Shown here: positions 18,928 to 38,543 of the stretch, piece after piece
Numbering within the stretch: position 1 is the stretch's first letter
Layout of the letters: each line of letters begins with the position of its first letter
Source of the DNA: Candidatus Polarisedimenticolaceae bacterium
GTDB taxonomy: Bacteria; Pseudomonadota; Gammaproteobacteria; Chromatiales; Chromatiaceae
Reading direction: 5' to 3'
DNA length: 47,595 nucleotides
Assembly: GCA_021647945.1 (NCBI GenBank)
Contig: JAKITT010000017.1
Coordinates: 1-47,595 of the forward strand
The notes under the pieces: model-generated
What the model saw: the letters and a program-made list of their open reading frames with translations, nothing else
What the model was told of the DNA's origin: nothing
Database searches by the model: none
Program-made: the position numbers and the translations under genes

Positions 18928-19161
18928 TTATCGTTTTTGGTGCCCAGCGTCATACACCATATATGCAAAAGCGCCGATGACGGCAAGCAATACTAAAAGT
19001 GCTGATGTGGTGATAACGCCTACACCAATAATAGCACCAAAAGTCTTGAGTTCAGAAGCTGTACCTACATTTGAAAGAAGCCAGCCGATTAAACTAAGGG
19101 GGGTATCCACTTCATTGGCCTTTTTCCACTCCAGACACTTTATGCTCGTGTAGGGTCGCAT
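18928..19161 (-). CDS. Possible small membrane protein whose start lies in a mobile element
   Basis: An ORF of 77 codons. Residues from about 24 onward (SLIGWLLSNV, then a strong transmembrane stretch IGVGVITTSALLVLLAVIGAF) come from unique sequence, whereas the first 22 residues including the only ATG are encoded by the repeat at 19097-19242. Without the repeat the frame meets a TGA a few codons upstream and has no start. It may be a decayed gene fragment or a young ORF created by the insertion. Its stop is nine bases from the stop of the convergent gene. Confidence 0.3.
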   Translation of the reverse strand: MRPYTSIKCLEWKKANEVDTPLSLIGWLLSNVGTASELKTFGAIIGVGVITTSALLVLLAVIGAFAYMVYDAGHQKR

Positions 19162-19242
19162 TTATGCGACCAGCCGAACCTGCAAACATGCACATGAATG
19201 TGCACCTACAGCCATATTAGGCCAATGAAGTAGATACCCCCT
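19097..19242 (-). mobile_element. MITE family A, copy 1 (intact, target duplication visible)
   Basis: A 146-base non-autonomous element bounded by inverted repeats (AGGGGGGTATCCACTTCATT at the left, its near complement at the right). TTAAACTA occurs directly on both sides (19089-19096 and 19243-19250), the signature of insertion. Inside are two GTAG-headed palindromes facing each other, one around GTCGCATTTATGCGAC and one around TGCACATGAATGTGCA. It is inverted relative to the other three copies. No protein is encoded. Confidence 0.85.
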
Positions 19243-19323
19243 TTAAACTAATATCTGAAACAATCTCGATTCAAATTGAGGTAAAGACTCTGCTGTTACA
19301 ACGTGTATGTTGCCTCATGGCAA

Positions 19324-22153: not shown

Positions 22154-22403
22154 CTGCCAAGAAGAATGAACCACAGAGGGCACAGAGAACACAGAGAAAA
22201 GAGAGAATTACTTAGGTGATTAGGTACAAAGCTCAGTATGCCCGTAGGAGCGGCGCCCTCGCCGCGATTGGGCTTGGCAGCGGAATTCATCGCGGCGTGG
22301 CGCCGCTCCTACAGATAACAACCAGTATGGCTGAGCTTTGTACCTAATCACCATTACTTATATCGAATTCTCTGTGCCCTCTGTGTTCTCTGTGGTTATA
22401 TCT
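22154..22403. repeat. CACAGAG-type element (family C, copy 2) split by MITE B
   Basis: The left part (22154-22214) matches the left arm of the copy at 19324, with CTGCCAAGAAGAAT then ACCACAGAGGGCACAG. The right part (22353-22403) carries CTCTGTGCCCTCTGTG and TTATATCT. Between them sits MITE B copy 1 (22215-22352). Removing it and one target duplication restores a contiguous hairpin element. Confidence 0.8.
22215..22352. mobile_element. MITE family B, copy 1, nested in a family C repeat
   Basis: A 138-base element bounded by inverted repeats GGTGATTAGGTACAAAGCTC and the complement at 22333-22352. An exact eight-base target duplication ATTACTTA flanks it (22207-22214 and 22353-22360). The interior has facing GTAG-headed palindromes (GTAGGAGCGGCGCC and GGCGCCGCTCCTAC). 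No coding capacity. A second copy lies at 31811-31951. Confidence 0.88.
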
Positions 22404-22495: not shown

Positions 22496-23320
22496 TTGGG
22501 TCGTTTATTCAAACAGAGTTTGTTGCTTACGCTTCTACTGCTCTCAACGCAGCTACAGGCAGCAGCAACGCGCGTTGTCTCAATCAATCTCTGTACTGAC
22601 CAGCTCTTGCTGCTGCTGGCGGATGAGTCTCAGGTCGCCTCCATCACCTTTTTGGCCCAAGATAGAACCAGTTCTTTTATGGCTGAACAGGCGGCCCACC
22701 ATACGGTTAATCATGCACGGGTTGAGGAGCTGATTGCACAACAGCCTGATCTGGTGCTGGCGAGTGAATACAGTGACCCCGCTTTGGTGCTGTTGTTAGA
22801 ACGGCTCGGTTTTCAGGTGGAGCGTTTTCCCAGTGCCAACGCCATCCAGACCATTCGTGACAATATCCACCGATTGGCAAGCCTGTTGGGGCAGGAGAGG
22901 CGTGGGGATCAATTGATTGCTGAGATGGATCGGCGAATTGAGCGCATTGCAGCCAAACCACGGGCTACTCGACCACGAGCGCTCTTCTACCAAGTACGAG
23001 GTTATACCAGTGGCAAGAATACGCTACAGGATGAGGCGCTACAGCTGGCAGGGTGGCAGAATCTCTCTAGCCAAGTGGGTATCAGCGGTTATGCACAGAT
23101 TGATCTTGAGACGCTGCTGCTGGCTGAGCCAGAGCAGCTTTTTACCTCCTCTTATGCTGCCAATAGCGATTCAATTGGCCAGCGTCAACTGCGTCACCCC
23201 GTATTGCAGCAGCTTGCCGGCGGCAAACCAATGGCGGAGATCGACTACCGTTTCTGGATCTGTGGTGGGCCGATGATCGCTGATGCGATTGAGGCGCTTG
23301 ATGTGGCGCATTGGCAATGA
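22496..23320 (+). CDS. ABC importer periplasmic binding protein (BtuF/FecB type)
   Basis: A 274-residue protein starting at TTG 22496 (AAGGG lies seven bases upstream) with a signal peptide (LFKQSLLLTLLLLSTQLQA). RVVSINLCTDQLLLLLAD is the typical start of the BtuF/FhuD/FecB fold, followed by VEELIAQQPDLVLASEYSD and a long connecting helix. It delivers a ligand, probably a corrinoid or ferric siderophore, to the permease encoded downstream. The gene overlaps the permease start (ATGA). No cobalamin riboswitch or Fur box was recognised upstream, and no TonB-dependent receptor lies nearby, so the ligand stays open. Confidence 0.88.
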   Translation: MGRLFKQSLLLTLLLLSTQLQAAATRVVSINLCTDQLLLLLADESQVASITFLAQDRTSSFMAEQAAHHTVNHARVEELIAQQPDLVLASEYSDPALVLLLERLGFQVERFPSANAIQTIRDNIHRLASLLGQERRGDQLIAEMDRRIERIAAKPRATRPRALFYQVRGYTSGKNTLQDEALQLAGWQNLSSQVGISGYAQIDLETLLLAEPEQLFTSSYAANSDSIGQRQLRHPVLQQLAGGKPMAEIDYRFWICGGPMIADAIEALDVAHWQ

Positions 23321-24315
23321 ACAAGCTGAGTCAAAAACATCTGCTGCAACTCTTCACTTTGCTGTTGGCGGCACTTACGGTCAGTTCACTCTTCGTAGGC
23401 TCCAACCCTATCCCCATTGTGCAGGCACTGCTGGAGAGCTTTTCAGATGATCCATCTATATTCGCCATTATCCTGACTGAGGTGCGCCTGCCGCGCACAC
23501 TTATTGCGGTGATTGTCGGGGCGACACTGGGTGCCAGTGGCGCTGCAATGCAGGGGTTGCTACGTAATCCACTGGCCAGCCCCGGTCTGATCGGTAGTGC
23601 CAGTGGTGCCGCGTTGGGTGCCGTCATTGTGCTTTATTTTGGCTTAGTCTCACTCTTTTCACTGGCCCTGCCGTTGGGCGGTATCATCGGCTCACTGTTC
23701 GCCACATTGCTGGTCTACCTACTCTCTGGTCGGCAGGCGGGCACGGTGACATTGATCCTGGCAGGTGTGGCGGTCAATGCGCTGACGCTGGCGATGATCT
23801 CACTGCTACTCAACTTGGCCCCTAGCCCCTATGCCGTGCAGGAGATTGTGCTTTGGATGTTGGGTTCGCTGGCCAATCATAGCCTGGATGATCTCTGGGT
23901 GATGTTGCCCGGCACACTGTTGGGCTGGGCGCTGCTGTTGGGCTGTGGACGAAAACTTGATGCACTGACGCTGGGCGAGGAGACGGCTCAGTCGATGGGT
24001 ATCAACCTGTTCAGACTACGCTGGCGTGTCTTTTTGGCAGTGGCTCTGGCGGTTGGCTCGGCTATTTCAGTCACTGGCTCTATCGGTTTTATCGGTTTAG
24101 TGGTGCCTCATCTGTTGCGACCATTGGTGGGCTATCAGCCGGGTCGCCTGATGACCGTCAGCGCACTTGGCGGTGCTATCTTACTCTTGGCTGCGGATAT
24201 CTCTGTTCGGCTGTTGCCAGGGTCAACAGAGATTAATGTGGGTGTGATCACCTCACTGGTCGGCGCGCCATTCTTCCTCTACTTGATCTTAAAAACCCGG
24301 CGCTATCAGTTATGA
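23317..24315 (+). CDS. FecCD-family ABC permease
   Basis: An inner-membrane permease of 332 residues with about ten hydrophobic segments. The segments LTEVRLPRTLIAVIVGATLG, SGAAMQGLLRNPLASPGLIG and FIGLVVPHLLRPLVGYQPG are diagnostic of the BtuC/FhuB/FecCD family; the last lies before the ATPase-coupling loop. The ATG at 23317 overlaps the binding-protein stop by three bases, and its own stop overlaps the ATPase start. Together the three genes make a complete importer for vitamin B12 or an iron chelate. Confidence 0.93.
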   Translation: MNKLSQKHLLQLFTLLLAALTVSSLFVGSNPIPIVQALLESFSDDPSIFAIILTEVRLPRTLIAVIVGATLGASGAAMQGLLRNPLASPGLIGSASGAALGAVIVLYFGLVSLFSLALPLGGIIGSLFATLLVYLLSGRQAGTVTLILAGVAVNALTLAMISLLLNLAPSPYAVQEIVLWMLGSLANHSLDDLWVMLPGTLLGWALLLGCGRKLDALTLGEETAQSMGINLFRLRWRVFLAVALAVGSAISVTGSIGFIGLVVPHLLRPLVGYQPGRLMTVSALGGAILLLAADISVRLLPGSTEINVGVITSLVGAPFFLYLILKTRRYQL

Positions 24316-25091
24316 GGCTACTTGAAGGTCACAATCTATCGCTGAGTTTAGGGGGTCGCCCCATTCTAAAGCAGGTTGACCTGAGCCTAGCTAAGGGAGA
24401 GATGCTGGGTCTGATCGGCCCCAATGGTGCGGGTAAAACGACGCTGCTGCGACTCTTGGCGGGTTTGGTGATGCCAGATGAGGGGAGGCTTCAGCTTGAG
24501 CAGCAGCCCTATCATGCCATTGATGTTGAGTCCCGTGCTAAGAAGATTGCCTATCTCAGTCAGAGTGGCACGGCACACTGGCCACTCACGGTTGAACGTT
24601 TGATTGAGTTGGGCCGCATTCCGCATCTTGGCAGTTGGCAAAAACCCAACCAGCAGGATGAGGTGATCATCCGCGATATTATGTTGCAAACAGATACCCA
24701 ACATCTGAAAGAGCGCTCATTTGACACCCTCTCAGGGGGGGAACGCGCCAGAGTATTACTGGCGCGGGCACTGGTCACTGAGCCGGATATCCTACTGGCA
24801 GATGAACCTGTCGCAGCGCTCGACCCTGCTCATCAGCTAGATGTGATGGCGCTGTTACAAAGACACTGTAGTGGCGGAGGTTCTGTTGTCGTCGTACTGC
24901 ATGATTTGAGTCTGGCAACGCACTATTGCCATCGTCTACAACTGCTATTAGAGGGGGCTGTTGTCGCGGTAGGTTCTGCTGTTGAGGTGCTTACTGAGAG
25001 CAACCTTAAACTGGCATACCAGATTACAGCGCGTCCAGCGTTATCCACATCAAGGCTATTTCCTCTTAACTGGCAGAAAATAGAGGATTAA
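24312..25091 (+). CDS. ABC transporter ATP-binding protein (BtuD/FecE type)
   Basis: A 259-residue ATPase. Walker A GPNGAGKTT is at about 36-44, the Q-loop in AYLSQSG, the ABC signature LSGGERARVLLARAL near 140, Walker B ILLADEPVAALDPAHQ near 160 and the switch histidine in VVLHDLSLA near 200. It drives the importer encoded by the two preceding genes, to which it is coupled by a four-base overlap. The last 40 residues include LKLAYQ, common in FecE/HmuV-type proteins. Confidence 0.94.
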   Translation: MRLLEGHNLSLSLGGRPILKQVDLSLAKGEMLGLIGPNGAGKTTLLRLLAGLVMPDEGRLQLEQQPYHAIDVESRAKKIAYLSQSGTAHWPLTVERLIELGRIPHLGSWQKPNQQDEVIIRDIMLQTDTQHLKERSFDTLSGGERARVLLARALVTEPDILLADEPVAALDPAHQLDVMALLQRHCSGGGSVVVVLHDLSLATHYCHRLQLLLEGAVVAVGSAVEVLTESNLKLAYQITARPALSTSRLFPLNWQKIED

Positions 25092-25226
25092 TTTCAACAG
25101 CTTCCATACCAATCTTAATTTATCACCTAAACTGCATATGTGGCTTATCTTTTCACTACTGGGAATTAAAGTGGCATGAAGATAGGCCGCTAACATGCTG
25201 AGAAACCAAATAATTGAGTTTAAGTG

Positions 25227-27053
25227 ATGAAAAGAAACGAGATATGGAAAACTGCGGCTGCTTTTCTACTAAGCACTTTGTTGTTGCTGCCATCCATGGC
25301 GGGGGCGGCAGATGAACTGGAGCAGGTTGATACACGGGTTTTGATCGACATCTCAGGCAGCATGAAGGAGAACGACCCTCAGAATCTGCGTCGTTCGGCG
25401 CTGCGACTATTGGTGGGCCTGCTGCCAGCAGAGACTCGCGCCGGTGTCTGGACATTTGGCCAATACGTCAACATGCAGATCAAACTAGGGGTCATTGATG
25501 ACGCATGGAAAAAACGTGCTCGTGCTGAAGCGGGTAAGATTCACTCACGTGGCCTCTATACCAATATCGAACTGGCTCTAAAACGCGCCACTAACGACTG
25601 GAGTGGCGCACCAAAAATCTATCGTCGTAGCATCATACTGCTGACCGATGGCATGGTAGATGTATCCAAAGACGCAAGCAAAGATCAGCAGTCACGCAAT
25701 AGAATTCTTGATGAGATAGTGCCACACCTTAAATCATTGGGTGTCGCGGTACATACCATTGCACTCTCAGAGCGGGCTGATCATGAACTGATGCGCCAGC
25801 TCTCTGAATCAACCGGGGGTTGGTATGAACAGGTCAACAGTGCCGATCGACTGCAACGGGTCTTTTTGAAAATGTTTGAGAAGGTGAGCCGGCCCGACAC
25901 GGTGCCACTCAAAGATAACCGCTTTACCATCGATAAAAGTATCTCTGAAGCGACCCTGCTTATTTTCCGCAGAGAGGGCAGTGAACCGAGCCGGATTAAG
26001 CCGCCAAAGGGGTATAGTTTTGAAGCGGACAATGCCCCATCCAATGTTCAGTGGCATCGAGATCGTGGATACGATCTGTTAACCATCAAAAACCCTCAAG
26101 CGGGTGAGTGGAGTATCCAGGCGGATATGGACCCTGACAACCGCGTCATGATCGTCACAGATCTAAAGATGAAATCGACTGCACTACCAAGCCGAATGTT
26201 GGTGGGTGAGGCGATGCCGATTGAAGTCATGTTTACAGAGCATGGTGAAATAATCAGCAAAAAAAGATTTTTACGCATGGTCAATATCACCTCTGAACGT
26301 TGGGCTAAAGATGGCCTCTCAGAGCCACGCCCGGTGGTTGATAATGGCCAGGGAGATGATGAAAAAGCCAATGATGGCCGTTTCACCTTTCGTTTTGGTG
26401 AAGGTGTTGATGAGGGTGTAGGGGAGCTGATTATCAGTGCCAAAGGTGCCACCTTTGTTCGTGAACAGCGTCAACTCTATGAGATCCTTCAGCCTGGTTT
26501 CCTTGAGCTGACACCTGCCACTGATGGAGCTGGTCGCTTTAATCTAAAGGTGACATTAGAAGCTGACATGTTGAAGAGAGACTCGATCCATTTTGATGCA
26601 CAGCTTGTGGGTGAAGAGGCGTCATCAAAAATCATACTGAAGCCTAGTGGAGAAGGGGTTTATACTAGCCAACTTGACCCCGCAAGCTTTCATGGTGATC
26701 GGCAGCTCAAGGTTAAACTGACGGCCCAAAGCCAGAATGACCAGCCTGTTAACCACCGATTTTCATCTATTAAGATAGTGGGTTCCGCTGCTGAAGTTGA
26801 AGAACCGCCACCCCCTGTCGAAAAGATAGAAGAGGCAACACCAGAAGAACCCGCTACTGAGTCTGAAAAAGAGGATGAAGCGGTGACTGAGGAGGAACCC
26901 GAGACGGGTGGAGGGTTACAGCAGGCACTCATTCTCTTTGCAGCAGGAAATGCCATCCTTATTATTGTTGGTGGTGGCATCTACTGGTTTATGCGCCGAA
27001 AGAGCAAGAACCCCAGCCTTGAAGATGATGAAGAGATTGAAGATGACGATTAA
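25227..27053 (+). CDS. VWA-domain envelope protein (TIGR03503-like)
   Basis: A protein of 608 residues with a signal peptide (about 8-28, SMAGA), a von Willebrand A domain at about 36-230 with the metal-ion site DISGSMKEND and ILLTDGMVD, a beta-rich middle region, an acidic proline-rich linker (about 520-565) and a C-terminal transmembrane segment (about 570-592) followed by RRKSK and an acidic tail. This layout corresponds to the uncharacterised family TIGR03503. The large domain should face the periplasm. The ATG at 25227 follows a GTG three bases upstream. Next to it are a 48-residue membrane peptide and an acidic anchored protein, probably one functional group. Confidence 0.82.
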   Translation: MKRNEIWKTAAAFLLSTLLLLPSMAGAADELEQVDTRVLIDISGSMKENDPQNLRRSALRLLVGLLPAETRAGVWTFGQYVNMQIKLGVIDDAWKKRARAEAGKIHSRGLYTNIELALKRATNDWSGAPKIYRRSIILLTDGMVDVSKDASKDQQSRNRILDEIVPHLKSLGVAVHTIALSERADHELMRQLSESTGGWYEQVNSADRLQRVFLKMFEKVSRPDTVPLKDNRFTIDKSISEATLLIFRREGSEPSRIKPPKGYSFEADNAPSNVQWHRDRGYDLLTIKNPQAGEWSIQADMDPDNRVMIVTDLKMKSTALPSRMLVGEAMPIEVMFTEHGEIISKKRFLRMVNITSERWAKDGLSEPRPVVDNGQGDDEKANDGRFTFRFGEGVDEGVGELIISAKGATFVREQRQLYEILQPGFLELTPATDGAGRFNLKVTLEADMLKRDSIHFDAQLVGEEASSKIILKPSGEGVYTSQLDPASFHGDRQLKVKLTAQSQNDQPVNHRFSSIKIVGSAAEVEEPPPPVEKIEEATPEEPATESEKEDEAVTEEEPETGGGLQQALILFAAGNAILIIVGGGIYWFMRRKSKNPSLEDDEEIEDDD

Positions 27054-27276
27054 CCCGGATATTTCACAAATTTGTGCAAAGACAGCTCTCGACTCCTGTC
27101 TTCGCTTGTATTTGTGCATCCATGCACTTCATTGCGCAGGATATTGGTTTCAGAAGAAAATTTCTGAAGAGATCCCGTATCAGTGATTACGGGTGACTGA
27201 AGAAATATTTCTTGTGGAATCAATAGACAAGCAAGATTGTACATAATTTATGAATTATCCGAGTTAAAGGTGTGCG

Positions 27277-27423
27277 ATGAGTGAAAGTGCTTATTTCTGG
27301 CTAATAACCGCTGGAGAGTTATCTCTAACCTTCTTTGCCTTCTTCATGCTTTTTCTATATGCAAAAAAGTATTTGGCGAAGATCGATTTAGGCTTTGATA
27401 GCAGCAATAACGATGCGAAATAG
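27277..27423 (+). CDS. 48-residue single-span membrane peptide
   Basis: A short ORF: MSESAYFWLITAGELSL begins it, a transmembrane stretch (LTFFAFFMLFLYA) follows, then KKYLAKIDLGFD and a polar end. It begins at ATG 27277 and stops at 27423; the next gene starts 12 bases later with the ribosome site AGGAGG overlapping this stop codon, which strongly suggests coupled translation. No homologue is recognised. It may be a small subunit of the acidic membrane protein encoded next. Confidence 0.65.
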   Translation: MSESAYFWLITAGELSLTFFAFFMLFLYAKKYLAKIDLGFDSSNNDAK

Positions 27424-27434
27424 GAGGTCATAGG

Positions 27435-28691
27435 ATGATCGAAATAAATTCCATCATTATTATGGCTATGGGCGAAGTGCTCTTGGTCTTGCTGATCATC
27501 ATCGTCGTAATGGTTGTTCTTGCGATGAAGCGCAATGCTAAAGACCAAGCTGCCGCAGAAGCCTTAATTAAACAACTCAAAAAAGATCGTAGTGCCAGAG
27601 ATGAAAAAGTACGTTGCATGTTGAACGGCAAATATCACTATGAAGATAGCGTGCTGGATAGCACCGTACGCAAGTTTTCAAAATCTGAGAGACACTTCTA
27701 TCAAAGATTTATAAAAATATACCTCAACAGAGACCATGAAAAACTATCTAAACTTGCCACTGATTTTGATGCGGTCACTGACCCCTTCTTCAATCTTGAA
27801 CTGCCTGCTTCTACTAGCAATAAAGAGCAGGCCCCTGCCGAGAATAATGAGTTCGCACGTCTTAAAGAAGCAAACGACAAGCTGAAAGAAGAACTCTCAG
27901 TTTCGATGAGTACGCTGGGTAGGATGTTGAGTGAGTACGCCAACGTCTTGGATGAAGATGCCCGACAAGAGGCCGCAGCAGAGGATGGTTCTAAAGAGGC
28001 ATCGATATCATCTGTATTGATGGGCACATTGGCAGAAAATAGCACACAAGATGATGCTGATGTAGATGTCTCTACCGAATCACCTGTTACCGATGAGCTG
28101 TTAGAACTATCCGAAGAGGAACCAAGTGATGGTTCTGATGTAGATATCTCTACTGAATCACCTGTTGCTGATGAGCTGTTAGAGCCATCGGAAGAGGAAC
28201 CAAGTGATGGTTCTGATCTAGATGTCTCTACTGAAGCGCCTGTTGCTGATGAGCTTTTAGAGATTCAAGAAGAGGCGCCTACTGAAGAGGCCCCAGTAGC
28301 CGTTCCTGAAGAGAAAGAGAATCTATCAACAGATGCGGTTGATGATCTATTGGACTCTATCAATGTACCAATAGAGGAGAAGAGCGATTCCGATGATGAG
28401 CTGTCAAAGGATCTGTTGGATGATTTAGATAAAGTCGCCAATGAAATTGATGAAATGGTTATTGATGCACCCAAAGAGGTATCAGAGAGCGAGGTTGATG
28501 ATATCGATGCGCTGCTTGCAGAGAGTGCTGCTACAGAAATAGCGATTGAGGCACCTAAAGAGGAGAGTGAGAGCAGCGATCCAGATGATATCCTTGAAGA
28601 GCTACAGAAGGCGCAAGATCTTGGCCAAGAGATCGAAAATCTAATTGATATGACGGATGACGCCAGTGCAGATGAGCCGTCAAAAGATTAG
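27435..28691 (+). CDS. Membrane-anchored acidic repeat protein
   Basis: A 418-residue protein with one N-terminal transmembrane helix (about 8-30), a basic segment (KRNAKDQ), a conserved-looking domain to about 125 (FSKSERHFYQRFIKIYL), a coiled-coil (about 138-165) and a long acidic tail. The tail contains three tandem units of 26 residues starting at residue 209 (DVDVSTESPVTDELLELSEE is the first part), encoded by 78-base repeats from 28059 to about 28285. The AGGAGG site lies just before the ATG. With the preceding VWA protein and small peptide it forms an operon of unknown role. The last codons GAT TAG lie in a sequence matching the end of MITE B. Confidence 0.75.
   Translation: MIEINSIIIMAMGEVLLVLLIIIVVMVVLAMKRNAKDQAAAEALIKQLKKDRSARDEKVRCMLNGKYHYEDSVLDSTVRKFSKSERHFYQRFIKIYLNRDHEKLSKLATDFDAVTDPFFNLELPASTSNKEQAPAENNEFARLKEANDKLKEELSVSMSTLGRMLSEYANVLDEDARQEAAAEDGSKEASISSVLMGTLAENSTQDDADVDVSTESPVTDELLELSEEEPSDGSDVDISTESPVADELLEPSEEEPSDGSDLDVSTEAPVADELLEIQEEAPTEEAPVAVPEEKENLSTDAVDDLLDSINVPIEEKSDSDDELSKDLLDDLDKVANEIDEMVIDAPKEVSESEVDDIDALLAESAATEIAIEAPKEESESSDPDDILEELQKAQDLGQEIENLIDMTDDASADEPSKD
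28059..28285 (+). repeat. Three tandem 78-base coding repeats
   Basis: Units start at 28059, 28137 and 28215; each encodes about 26 residues of the pattern D-V/L-D-V/I-S-T-E-S/A-P-V-T/A-D-E-L-L-E. The first two are almost identical, the third diverges in its last third. Copy number may vary between strains. Confidence 0.8.
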
Positions 28692-28705: not shown

Positions 28706-28736
28706 CACTCAGATGATGCACTGTAATTTAAAGAAA

Positions 28737-28880
28737 AGGGGTATCCACTCCATTGGCCTAATATGGCTGTAGGTGCACATTCATGTGCATGTTTGCAGGT
28801 TCGGCTGGTCGCATAAATGCGACCCTACATGAGCATAAAGTGTCTGGAGTGGAAAAAGGCCAATGAAGTAGATACCCCCT
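28737..28880 (+). mobile_element. MITE family A, copy 2
   Basis: A 144-base copy in the opposite orientation to copy 1, ending GATACCCCCT. TTTAAAGAAA stands on both sides (28727-28736 and 28881-28890), a ten-base target duplication in AT-rich DNA. The interior has palindromes GTAGGTGCACATTCATGTGC (28769 onward) and GGTCGCATAAATGCGACC (28807 onward). It separates the acidic-protein gene from cca. Beyond it, 28891-29027 shows nothing recognisable apart from the likely cca promoter. Confidence 0.88.
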
Positions 28881-29027
28881 TTTAAAGAAAACGGGGCAAG
28901 GCTCGCCTCCCTTAAGGCATTATTGATAGACAATCAACAAAGTCCATTCACCTCAGCCTCAACAGGCGTTATTATCCAACGTTCGCAGATCAGTGAGAAT
29001 AACGCCCACCATGTACCGTAAAACAGA

Positions 29028-30137
29028 ATGAAGAGCTACCTTGTCGGTGGCGCCGTTAGGGATAGATTGCTTGGCATGACCGCTACCGAACAGGATTGGC
29101 TTGTTGTCGGTGCGACTGAACAGGCGATGCTTGACCAGGGCTTTCGTCATCTTGATAGTGATTTCCCTGTTTTCCTTCATCCTGAGACAGGGGATGAGTA
29201 TGCACTGGCCAGAAGAGAGTTTAAAACCGGCGCAGGTTATAAAGGTTTTACCACCCAAGCGACCGCCGAGGTCACTTTAGAGCAGGATCTCAGCCGTCGT
29301 GATCTCACCATCAACGCCATCGCCGAAGATGCAGATGGACAACTCATCGACCCCTATCATGGCCTGCAAGATCTGCAAAAGAGAAGGCTTCACCATATCA
29401 CCCCCGCCTTTGTAGAGGACCCGGTTAGAGTGCTGCGGGTGGCCCGTTTTGCCGCCTATCTTGGTGCATATGGCTTTGAGGTGGCAACAGATACGCTGGC
29501 ACTGATGCAGCAGATGAGTGCCACCGAGGACTTTGGTCATCTGAAGCGTGAGCGGGTTTGGCGCGAGTTCAAACGTTCACTCTCGACCACGTCACCCTGG
29601 CTTTTTGTCCAGATACTTCATCAATGTGGTGCGTTGCAGCACCTCATGCCTCTGCTTGATCAGCATCACACAATGGCTATCACCACGCTACAGCGAGCCA
29701 CCATCTCCTGTGATGACCCCGTTATCCGTTTTGTCGCGCTCTTCTATTGGCCCGTCATCAAAGAGGAGGCTGATATCAATCTGTTATGCCAGGGGTTACG
29801 TGCTGAAAAACCTTTTACCGAGTTGTTACAACTCACGGTAAAAAATGCCTCTTCACTGCATGATCTACAGATGAGTGATGCTGAAGAGGTACTCAGTCTG
29901 CTTGAACAGAGCAGAGCCATTAGAGCTCCGCAGTTGTTTAATAGACTTCTTCAACTTGTGCGCATCTTGTGGCCGGAGAAGATCAACCTAACGAATTGGC
30001 TGACAAACCTACTGCCAGTCATTGCTGCTATCTCAGCCAAATCGCTTCAGCCAACAGGGCTTGAGGGTAGGGCGCTGGGTGATGCACTTCGGCAGGCACG
30101 TCTACACGCTATAAAAACATTCCCCTCAACACCTTAA
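29028..30137 (+). CDS. cca: CCA-adding tRNA nucleotidyltransferase
   Basis: An enzyme of 369 residues that builds and repairs the 3' CCA end of tRNAs. The polymerase head shows YLVGGAVRDRLLG at the start, the acidic catalytic segment in ATEQDWLVVGA, and RRDLTINAIAED, then the nucleotide-recognising part DPVRVLRVARFAAYLGAYGF. It lacks the C-terminal HD phosphohydrolase domain found in the longer Escherichia coli enzyme (412 residues), so it belongs to the shorter form. The ATG at 29028 is the start of the conserved region. The next gene follows after four bases. Confidence 0.95.
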   Translation: MKSYLVGGAVRDRLLGMTATEQDWLVVGATEQAMLDQGFRHLDSDFPVFLHPETGDEYALARREFKTGAGYKGFTTQATAEVTLEQDLSRRDLTINAIAEDADGQLIDPYHGLQDLQKRRLHHITPAFVEDPVRVLRVARFAAYLGAYGFEVATDTLALMQQMSATEDFGHLKRERVWREFKRSLSTTSPWLFVQILHQCGALQHLMPLLDQHHTMAITTLQRATISCDDPVIRFVALFYWPVIKEEADINLLCQGLRAEKPFTELLQLTVKNASSLHDLQMSDAEEVLSLLEQSRAIRAPQLFNRLLQLVRILWPEKINLTNWLTNLLPVIAAISAKSLQPTGLEGRALGDALRQARLHAIKTFPSTP

Positions 30138-31709: not shown

Positions 31710-31796
31710 GTAGGGCGGGATTTATCCCGCCAGCGGAGGTAAATTGAGCCGCATGATTTTATTTCGACACCACAGGCGGGATAAATCCCGCCCTAC
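31710..31796. repeat. Inverted pair of GTAG-headed palindromes (GTAGGGCGGGAT type)
   Basis: GTAGGGCGGGATTTATCCCG at 31710 faces CGGGATAAATCCCGCCCTAC at its other end (31775-31796); each arm is a near-perfect palindrome. The 43-base spacer is unique. Another REP-like family, placed between the terminator and MITE B copy 2. Confidence 0.8.
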
Positions 31797-31810
31797 AGCC
31801 TGAAACAACA

Positions 31811-31951
31811 GGTAGTTACTGTACAAAGCTCAGTATACCCGTAGGAGCGGTGCCCTCGCCGCGATTGGGCTTGGCAGCGGAATTCATCGCGGCGTGGCGC
31901 CGTTCCTACAGATAACAACCAGTATGGCTGAGCTTCGTACCTCTAATCACC
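31811..31951. mobile_element. MITE family B, copy 2
   Basis: The interior from GTACAAAGCTCAGTATACCC to AACAACCAGTATGGCTGAGC matches copy 1 almost base for base, including the facing palindromes headed by GTAGGAGCGG. The left terminal repeat is altered (GGTAGTTACT in place of GGTGATTAG) and the right has a two-base insertion (ACCTCTAATCACC). No target duplication is evident, so this is an older copy. It lies three bases from the end of the lipase-like gene. Confidence 0.8.
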
Positions 31952-38338: not shown

Positions 38339-38367
38339 TCAGAGTTCAATGAAACAAAATTTTTTAA

Positions 38368-38511
38368 AGGGGTATCCACTCCATTGGCCTAATATGGCTG
38401 TAGGTGCACATTCATGCGCATGTTTGTAGGTTCGGCTGGTCGCATAAATGCGACCCTACACGCGCATAAAGTGTCTGGAGTGGAAAAAGGCCAATGAAGT
38501 GGATACCCCCT
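38368..38511 (+). mobile_element. MITE family A, copy 3, between smc and zipA
   Basis: A 144-base copy with GGGGTATCCACTCCATTGGC at the left and the complementary end GGCCAATGAAGTGGATACCC at the right. Interior palindromes GTAGGTGCACATTCATGCGC and GGTCGCATAAATGCGACC are present. The target is a T/A run (TTTTTTAA and TTTCTTTTAA at the two ends), without an exact duplication. It begins 30 bases after the smc stop and ends 32 bases before zipA. Confidence 0.88.
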
Positions 38512-38543
38512 TTTCTTTTAAACATGAGATATAACCCTTAATT

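Follow-up and report, generated by a model that had tools for sequence, protein, structure and literature searches.

What do three consecutive forward-strand genes on contig JAKITT010000017.1 of a Candidatus Polarisedimenticolaceae bacterium form together, and what does that unit do? The genes lie at positions 25227-28691 of the 47,595 nucleotides analysed here (the window) and encode a protein with a von Willebrand factor type A (VWA) domain, a 48-residue membrane peptide and an acidic repeat protein, below called C. A preliminary description of this DNA had read them as an operon whose products likely form a joint membrane complex, and proposed no function. We found that the conserved unit is the VWA-C pair and not a three-gene operon, and that the pair shows a strong link to motility. 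The connection with flagella and chemotaxis is new here.

Conservation of the VWA-C pair

The class was surveyed with 274 genomes. C was detected in 61 of them and a TIGR03503-like VWA protein in 78, and 57 had both. In 56 of these 57 genomes VWA and C shared both contig and strand, and 39 to 1,731 bases separated their profile matches. The sole exception (G255) is 64% complete and has the two genes on different contigs. A first locus survey gave 29 loci besides the window, and as one of them (L021) ends at a contig edge, 28 were left for comparison. The VWA stop overlapped the C start or was at most about 25 nt away from it in 25 of the 28, and wider gaps were seen in L019 (about 305 nt) and L026 (about 155 nt). 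We therefore consider it very likely that the pair is real and conserved.

Both membrane helices also carry a conserved polar residue. In the C anchor, Glu14 did not vary in alignments of 24 and of 40 sequences, and 42 of the 43 class rows have it. The residue in the VWA helix is Asn575, which was invariant in 26 sequences and present in 41 of 43 class loci; the script had given 40/43, having taken the wrong segment for L182, in which the true anchor has the Asn. The only C row without the membrane Glu was from G119, and there the paired VWA also lacks the Asn. Judged by title or the beginning of the abstract, none of the publications among the matches listed dealt with the pair, one list being swamped by unrelated words, and a literature search on the TIGR03503 name returned no publications.

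Co-occurrence with flagella and chemotaxis

The flagellar protein FliM was found in 73 of the 78 genomes with VWA as compared to 70 of the 196 without (p = 3.9e-20), and in 56/61 genomes with C as compared to 87/213 without (p = 1.9e-13). The association was also present with one genome per family (171 genomes), where FliM was found in 44/47 VWA-positive and 41/124 VWA-negative genomes (p = 1.1e-13), and in 30/33 C-positive and 55/138 C-negative ones. Among families of at least 2.0 Mb the corresponding numbers were 40/42 and 41/87 for VWA, and 26/28 and 55/101 for C. Within FliM-positive genomes, VWA was further associated with CheZ (65/73 with VWA vs 42/70 without, p = 8.5e-5), also at one genome per family (p = 0.00082).

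PilY1 was used as a pilus control. Its association with VWA (58/78 vs 79/196) was weaker than that of FliM and was not significant within FliM-positive genomes (55/73 vs 45/70, p = 0.2), and a type IV pilus link was rejected on these grounds. Within PilY1-positive genomes, FliM was found in 55/58 with VWA and 45/79 without. FlhF gave no added association with VWA within FliM-positive genomes (p = 0.2), so that an FlhF-specific link is inseparable from flagella and was set aside. The VWA-C pair likely belongs with flagellar motility or chemotaxis.

CheY-binding-like peptides in the C tails

Two short cores in the acidic tail of the window's C were compared with the flagellar proteins of the source genome, in which FliM begins MSVSDLLSQDEIDALLHG and CheZ finishes SQDEVDDLLSSLGF. 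The core VDDLL at 28338-28352 (+), in the context TDAVDDLLDSI, resembles the CheZ C-terminus, and the core IDALL at 28503-28517 (+), in the context EVDDIDALLAES, resembles the FliM N-terminus. According to the excerpts available of the two sources, LSQxEIDxLL is the CheY-binding motif of FliM (PMC5677366), and CheZ and FliM use a common face of CheY (PMC3774744). The window tail has EVDDIDALL without the LSQ part, and a relative (L208) has STSQDDIDALLDS. Unlike the ends of FliM and CheZ, the candidate peptides of C lie inside a membrane-anchored acidic tail, occur in several copies in some relatives and usually lack LSQ.

A strict motif, [DE][IV]D[ADES]L[LF], was counted in the tails and in 2000 shuffles per set. 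The first survey gave 8 occurrences, spread over 6 of its 30 tails (shuffle mean 0.08), and the class set gave 14, spread over 8 of its 43 tails (shuffle mean 0.06), numbers reached by 0/2000 shuffles in either set. Three genomes (G064, G078, G091) are common to both sets and have no strict motif. C proteins had the motif 19 times in 32,445 residues, whereas the other proteins encoded at these loci had it 3 times in 278,570 residues, and one of these three is the end of a CheZ. Given the likeness of the peptides to the ends by which FliM and CheZ bind CheY, a VWA-C complex would be a docking place for CheY or receivers like it, and direct docking is in our view the best mechanism on offer, with about even chances of being right.

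A FliN-like W motif was not relied on as support; it was found in 3/30 family C tails (shuffle mean 0.11), 0/43 class C tails and, as 4 copies, in 1/38 VWA tails. The C-terminal tails of two VWA proteins have repeats, 4 copies of ADAWAEAL in L156 (G188) and 3 copies of AAQWEAML in L205 (G123), which resemble the N-terminus (ADEWAAAL) of the FliN-like protein beside FliM in the source genome. The C partner in L156 is short (208 residues), as if the motif-bearing tail had shifted to the VWA partner.

Features of the VWA protein and C

The VWA gene (25227-27053, +; from the open reading frame (ORF) list, Pfam, the alignment and AlphaFold2) encodes 608 residues from its ATG, and an in-frame GTG lies directly before this start, at 25224. 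The protein consists of a signal peptide, the VWA domain, three beta-sandwich regions, a linker, a C-terminal membrane helix and a short acidic tail. The VWA domain (residues 38-205; 25338-25841, +) matched PF00092 with E 1.4e-10 and 42.1 bits, the gathering score being 23.8. The metal ion-dependent adhesion site (MIDAS) of such domains is made up of DxSxS, T and D residues, and the corresponding D41, S43, S45, T112 and D141 were invariant in the alignment of 26 VWA sequences. In the AlphaFold2 model (mean pLDDT 84.3) the VWA domain and the beta-sandwich regions, counted as three by reading the strands, extend to residue 518 and are followed by a disordered linker and the helix 563-593 (26913-27005, +; also supported by the alignment), with the codon of Asn575 at 26949. 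The VWA protein of the unit is periplasmic, of the MIDAS type and C-terminally anchored; the preliminary description, too, had given it a large periplasmic VWA domain and a C-terminal anchor.

The same description had linked it with TIGR03503 proteins, and membership of that family was rejected on score. Residues 225-594 aligned to positions 2-373/374 of this model, nearly its whole length, with E 7.6e-46. The score of 156.8 bits (158.1 in the genome search) is about half the cut-off of 305.6, so the protein is a distant relative of this NCBIfam hypothetical equivalog and not a member. The cut-off was passed by one match in the class genomes (G195), an ORF of 439 residues in which the match begins about 43 residues in, leaving no room for an N-terminal VWA domain; no C gene was found beside it.

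C (27435-28691, +; 418 residues; from the ORF list, alignments and an AlphaFold2 model) has an N-terminal anchor with the conserved Glu14, a helical domain, a coiled coil and an acidic tail. Its isoelectric point of 4.05 and the 26-residue repeats in its tail (a 78-bp unit repeated 2.7 times at 28050-28262, +, from repeat analysis) agree with the acidic repeat protein of the preliminary description. In the model of residues 1-185 (pLDDT 89.8, pTM 0.55) a long helix (2-50) leads into a helical bundle that ends at residue 119, and residues 135-184 form a coiled coil. Since basic residues follow the anchor, the tail is probably in the cytoplasm. No Pfam or NCBIfam match above cut-off was found for C, and a plasmid search with it gave no match. 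With the C core, Foldseek gave zero matches at E <= 0.001, and the best VIA-align match (Z 7.2, root-mean-square deviation 2.7 over 87 residues) was middling for a helical model, so no clear relative with a solved fold was obtained.

Gene neighbourhood

Several relatives have chemotaxis-type genes next to the pair or to one of its members. A gene for a receiver-TPR protein was found downstream of C at 12 nt in G252 and at 56 nt in G092, and also downstream of the VWA gene of G120, a genome in which C went undetected. CheV was encoded downstream of C in G241 and downstream of VWA in G101, again with no C detected. The opposite-strand neighbours of the pair in G253, G128, G111 and G184 were CheR, two PilZ proteins and a methyl-accepting chemotaxis protein (MCP). 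As the 20 neighbouring proteins searched for domains were picked by eye, no enrichment of neighbours is claimed.

G119 has three C-family genes (L151, L154, L155), one of them paired with VWA, one 21 nt behind cheZ, which in turn follows cheY, and one that follows FliK and FlhB-C genes. In the sister species, G001, the strand opposite to VWA carries a FliK-like and an FlhB-C-terminal-like gene about 2.7 kb upstream of it (L149:1707-3256). In genomes of the Sedimenticola/Thiodiazotropha type (L091-L145) 36 of the 55 loci had a gene for an LpxL-like acyltransferase upstream of the pair, and the other strand carried genes resembling those of SoxZ, SoxY and BepA; these four names were assigned by eye.

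Comparison with known systems

According to the excerpt available, FipA is a flagella-linked polar determinant with a short periplasmic N-terminus, one membrane helix, a coiled region and a cytoplasmic DUF2802 domain (PMC11620751). As far as this outline goes, C is similar in its short, probably periplasmic N-terminus, single membrane helix, coiled region, probably cytoplasmic domain and flagella link, but differs by its long acidic tail, its VWA partner and the absence of a DUF2802 match in Pfam up to E 1. The polar landmarks HubP/FimV are described, in the available part of PMC12918733, as single-span proteins with a large acidic cytoplasmic region and LysM-like periplasmic and C-terminal FimV domains. 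C shares the single span and, if its tail is cytoplasmic as is probable, the large acidic cytoplasmic region of that description, whereas its periplasmic part would sit on a separate VWA protein, and neither a LysM nor a FimV domain was matched in Pfam up to E 1.

In another reading the pair is a factor for flagellar assembly or placement that would act in the manner of FipA or HubP, with VWA as a structural part of the periplasm near the motor, the helical domain and acidic tail of C binding FlhF, FlhG or export parts, and no docking of CheY. The co-occurrence with FliM and FlhF would fit such a factor, as would the layout shared with FipA and HubP/FimV and the C paralogue behind the FliK and FlhB-C genes. 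A ParA-like gene upstream in G276 and G128 (domain checked for G128) points the same way. However, within FliM-positive genomes VWA goes with CheZ and not with FlhF, the FliM/CheZ-type motifs and the receiver neighbours indicate CheY-like partners, and C gave no DUF2802, LysM or FimV match. We regard this reading as rather unlikely, and docking of receivers remains the one that we prefer.

PilY1 is also an envelope protein with a VWA domain that is tied to motility, and it has been proposed as a surface sensor, in the excerpts of PMC9210963 and PMC8806160. The VWA protein resembles PilY1 as described there, but goes with flagella and CheZ rather than with PilY1, and it had no match to the PilY1 domain PF05567 up to E 1. 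The VWA fold itself matched BatB (3ibs, TM-score by target 0.65). Unlike BatA/BatB, the VWA protein has extra beta-sandwich regions and C as its partner, and no Bat partner was recognised among seven window genes scanned.

The 48-residue peptide

The small gene between VWA and C (27277-27423, +; from the ORF, homologue searches and a substitution test; Glu14 codon at 27316) was already noticed in the preliminary description, including the overlap of its stop with the ribosome-binding site of the next gene. Its TAG indeed overlaps the AGGAGG preceding C (27422-27427, +, read directly from the sequence). The peptide is 54% identical to that of the sister species, which is the other genome of the genus. 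The comparison of the two gave dN 0.33 and dS 1.09, with 15.3 substitutions in 26.7 synonymous sites as compared to 31.7 in 117.3 nonsynonymous sites (Fisher p = 0.005), and the remaining two frames contain 4 to 8 stops. Because of the synonymous excess, the identity and the stop-filled other frames, the peptide is, on sequence criteria, a real gene in the genus. It was clear in 2 of 57 family genomes, both members of the genus, and in 2 of 195 order genomes, the next best match having E 0.013. The sister species was also the sole one of the 28 surveyed loci outside the window with the peptide between VWA and C, with an overlap of 8 nt between the VWA stop and the peptide start. A conserved three-gene system was rejected on these counts.

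Glu at residue 14 is common to the peptide and the C anchor. With a first C-anchor profile the score of the peptide was reached by 19 and 8 of 1000 shuffles, and the best pairwise matches by 7 and 3 of 300. With a larger profile the counts were 192 and 62 in 2000 shuffles, or 514 and 234 in 2000 with the Glu held fixed. The peptide as a proven duplicate of the C anchor was rejected, as the larger profile gave no significance. Descent from the C anchor is suggestive only, judged from this sequence similarity.

The preliminary description's three-protein complex, with the peptide as a stable core part, is very unlikely in light of these results. Purifying selection on the peptide in the genus, the position of its Glu14 and the overlap with the VWA stop in the sister species would be in keeping with it; against it stand the restriction to the genus, the insignificant kinship to the C anchor and the 216-bp repeat that splits the peptide from VWA in the window. 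Of the proposed operon, the frames and, in the sister species, their tight layout were found, and VWA and C are linked as neighbours; the three-gene order is not conserved in relatives, and the peptide frame is not conserved outside the genus. The proposed joint complex is kept for VWA and C, which are adjacent, mostly tightly spaced and each keep a polar residue in the anchor, and is given up for the three-gene unit.

Dispersed repeats and regulatory scan

The element between VWA and the peptide is a 216-bp dispersed repeat resembling a miniature inverted-repeat transposable element (27051-27266, no strand assigned; ends set by eye from copies). Its ends are TAACCCGGATA/TATCCGAGTTA, and it is the first three bases of this element that provide the stop codon of VWA. 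At least 36 matches were found in the genome, at least 24 of them with E <= 6.3e-20 counting the window copy, among the best 40 of 43 candidates, which were scored. Most of seven further copies compared begin TAGCCCGG. The repeat has terminal inverted repeats that usually finish, on the outside, in the stop codon TAG, in place of which the window copy has TAA; certain copies are without an internal stretch. Judged by eye, removal of the element would bring the VWA stop over the peptide start, as in relatives.

A second dispersed repeat of about 150 bp occurs at 28735-28883, 19096-19244 (-) and 38366-38514 (+), and the genome gave at least 40 strong matches to it. Several contigs, among them C143, C141 and C159, have such a match directly at the edge of one to the 216-bp repeat or running over that edge. 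Short ORFs at 22216-22354 and 31793-31918 share the translated stretch APRRDEFRCQAQSRRG, which points to a third dispersed repeat. The promoter scan gave nothing over shuffles (5 vs mean 6.1), and 7 terminator-like sites were found as compared to a shuffle mean of 3.1.

Proposed function and its significance

We propose that VWA and C form one inner-membrane complex, in which the periplasmic VWA and beta-sandwich part would bind a metal-dependent ligand or a structural partner. The C-terminal helix of VWA would pair with the N-terminal helix of C, probably aided by the Asn and Glu within the membrane, and C would extend its helical domain, coiled coil and long acidic tail into the cytoplasm. 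There the tail peptides may serve as membrane docking sites for CheY or for receivers of its kind (CheV, receiver-TPR), by which flagellar switching or chemotaxis would be tuned. The 48-residue peptide would be a genus-specific accessory, perhaps within the same helix interface. This is our best explanation of the pair, and we hold it to be evenly balanced between right and wrong.

Several observations weigh against it. The main weakness is that the strict motif was missing from 24/30 and 35/43 C tails. The association of C with CheZ within FliM-positive genomes was borderline (p = 0.05), and lifestyle could confound the co-occurrence beyond the controls used. At the thresholds used, 21 of 78 VWA-positive genomes lacked C and 4 of 61 C-positive genomes lacked VWA, and in G201 the VWA is without the Asn, yet C keeps the Glu. 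Most surveyed neighbours were not recognisable motility genes; in the window they are a BtuF-FecCD-ABC (BtuCDF-like) transporter set upstream (22496-25091) and cca downstream (29028-30137). Finally, neither FliM nor FlhF was over the cut-off in three C-positive genomes, of which G137 and G154 are about 99% complete and the third is G255.

The last of these observations would suit a general envelope or surface-sensing complex, the tail of which binds various receivers and which flagellated free-living bacteria need more often. Such a complex would also explain the varied neighbours, including PilZ, HDOD, CheR, MCP and receiver-TPR genes, and would have a parallel in VWA proteins such as PilY1 with its proposed sensing role. 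The persistence of the FliM association at one genome per family, at 2.0 Mb or more and within PilY1-positive genomes argues against this reading, which we find unlikely. The docking explanation can also be taken further, as a possible but doubtful extension. A periplasmic MIDAS-VWA sensor would then control, via the paired Asn/Glu contact in the membrane, a row of decoy peptides of the FliM/FliN/CheZ kind in the cytoplasm, and through them a signal from the envelope or surface would titrate CheY away from the flagellar switch or toward it. The genus-specific microprotein, imitating the C anchor, would tune this contact, and the whole would be an undescribed system of flagellated Gammaproteobacteria.

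If the docking explanation is right, many flagellated Gammaproteobacteria have an envelope module, so far without a name, that is connected to chemotaxis, and the carriers include relatives of the animal symbionts Thiodiazotropha and of tubeworm symbionts. It would give a testable function to proteins that have no family or are merely TIGR03503-like. Membrane-held CheY-docking peptides would also be a concrete idea of how the state of the envelope or surface could bias swimming.

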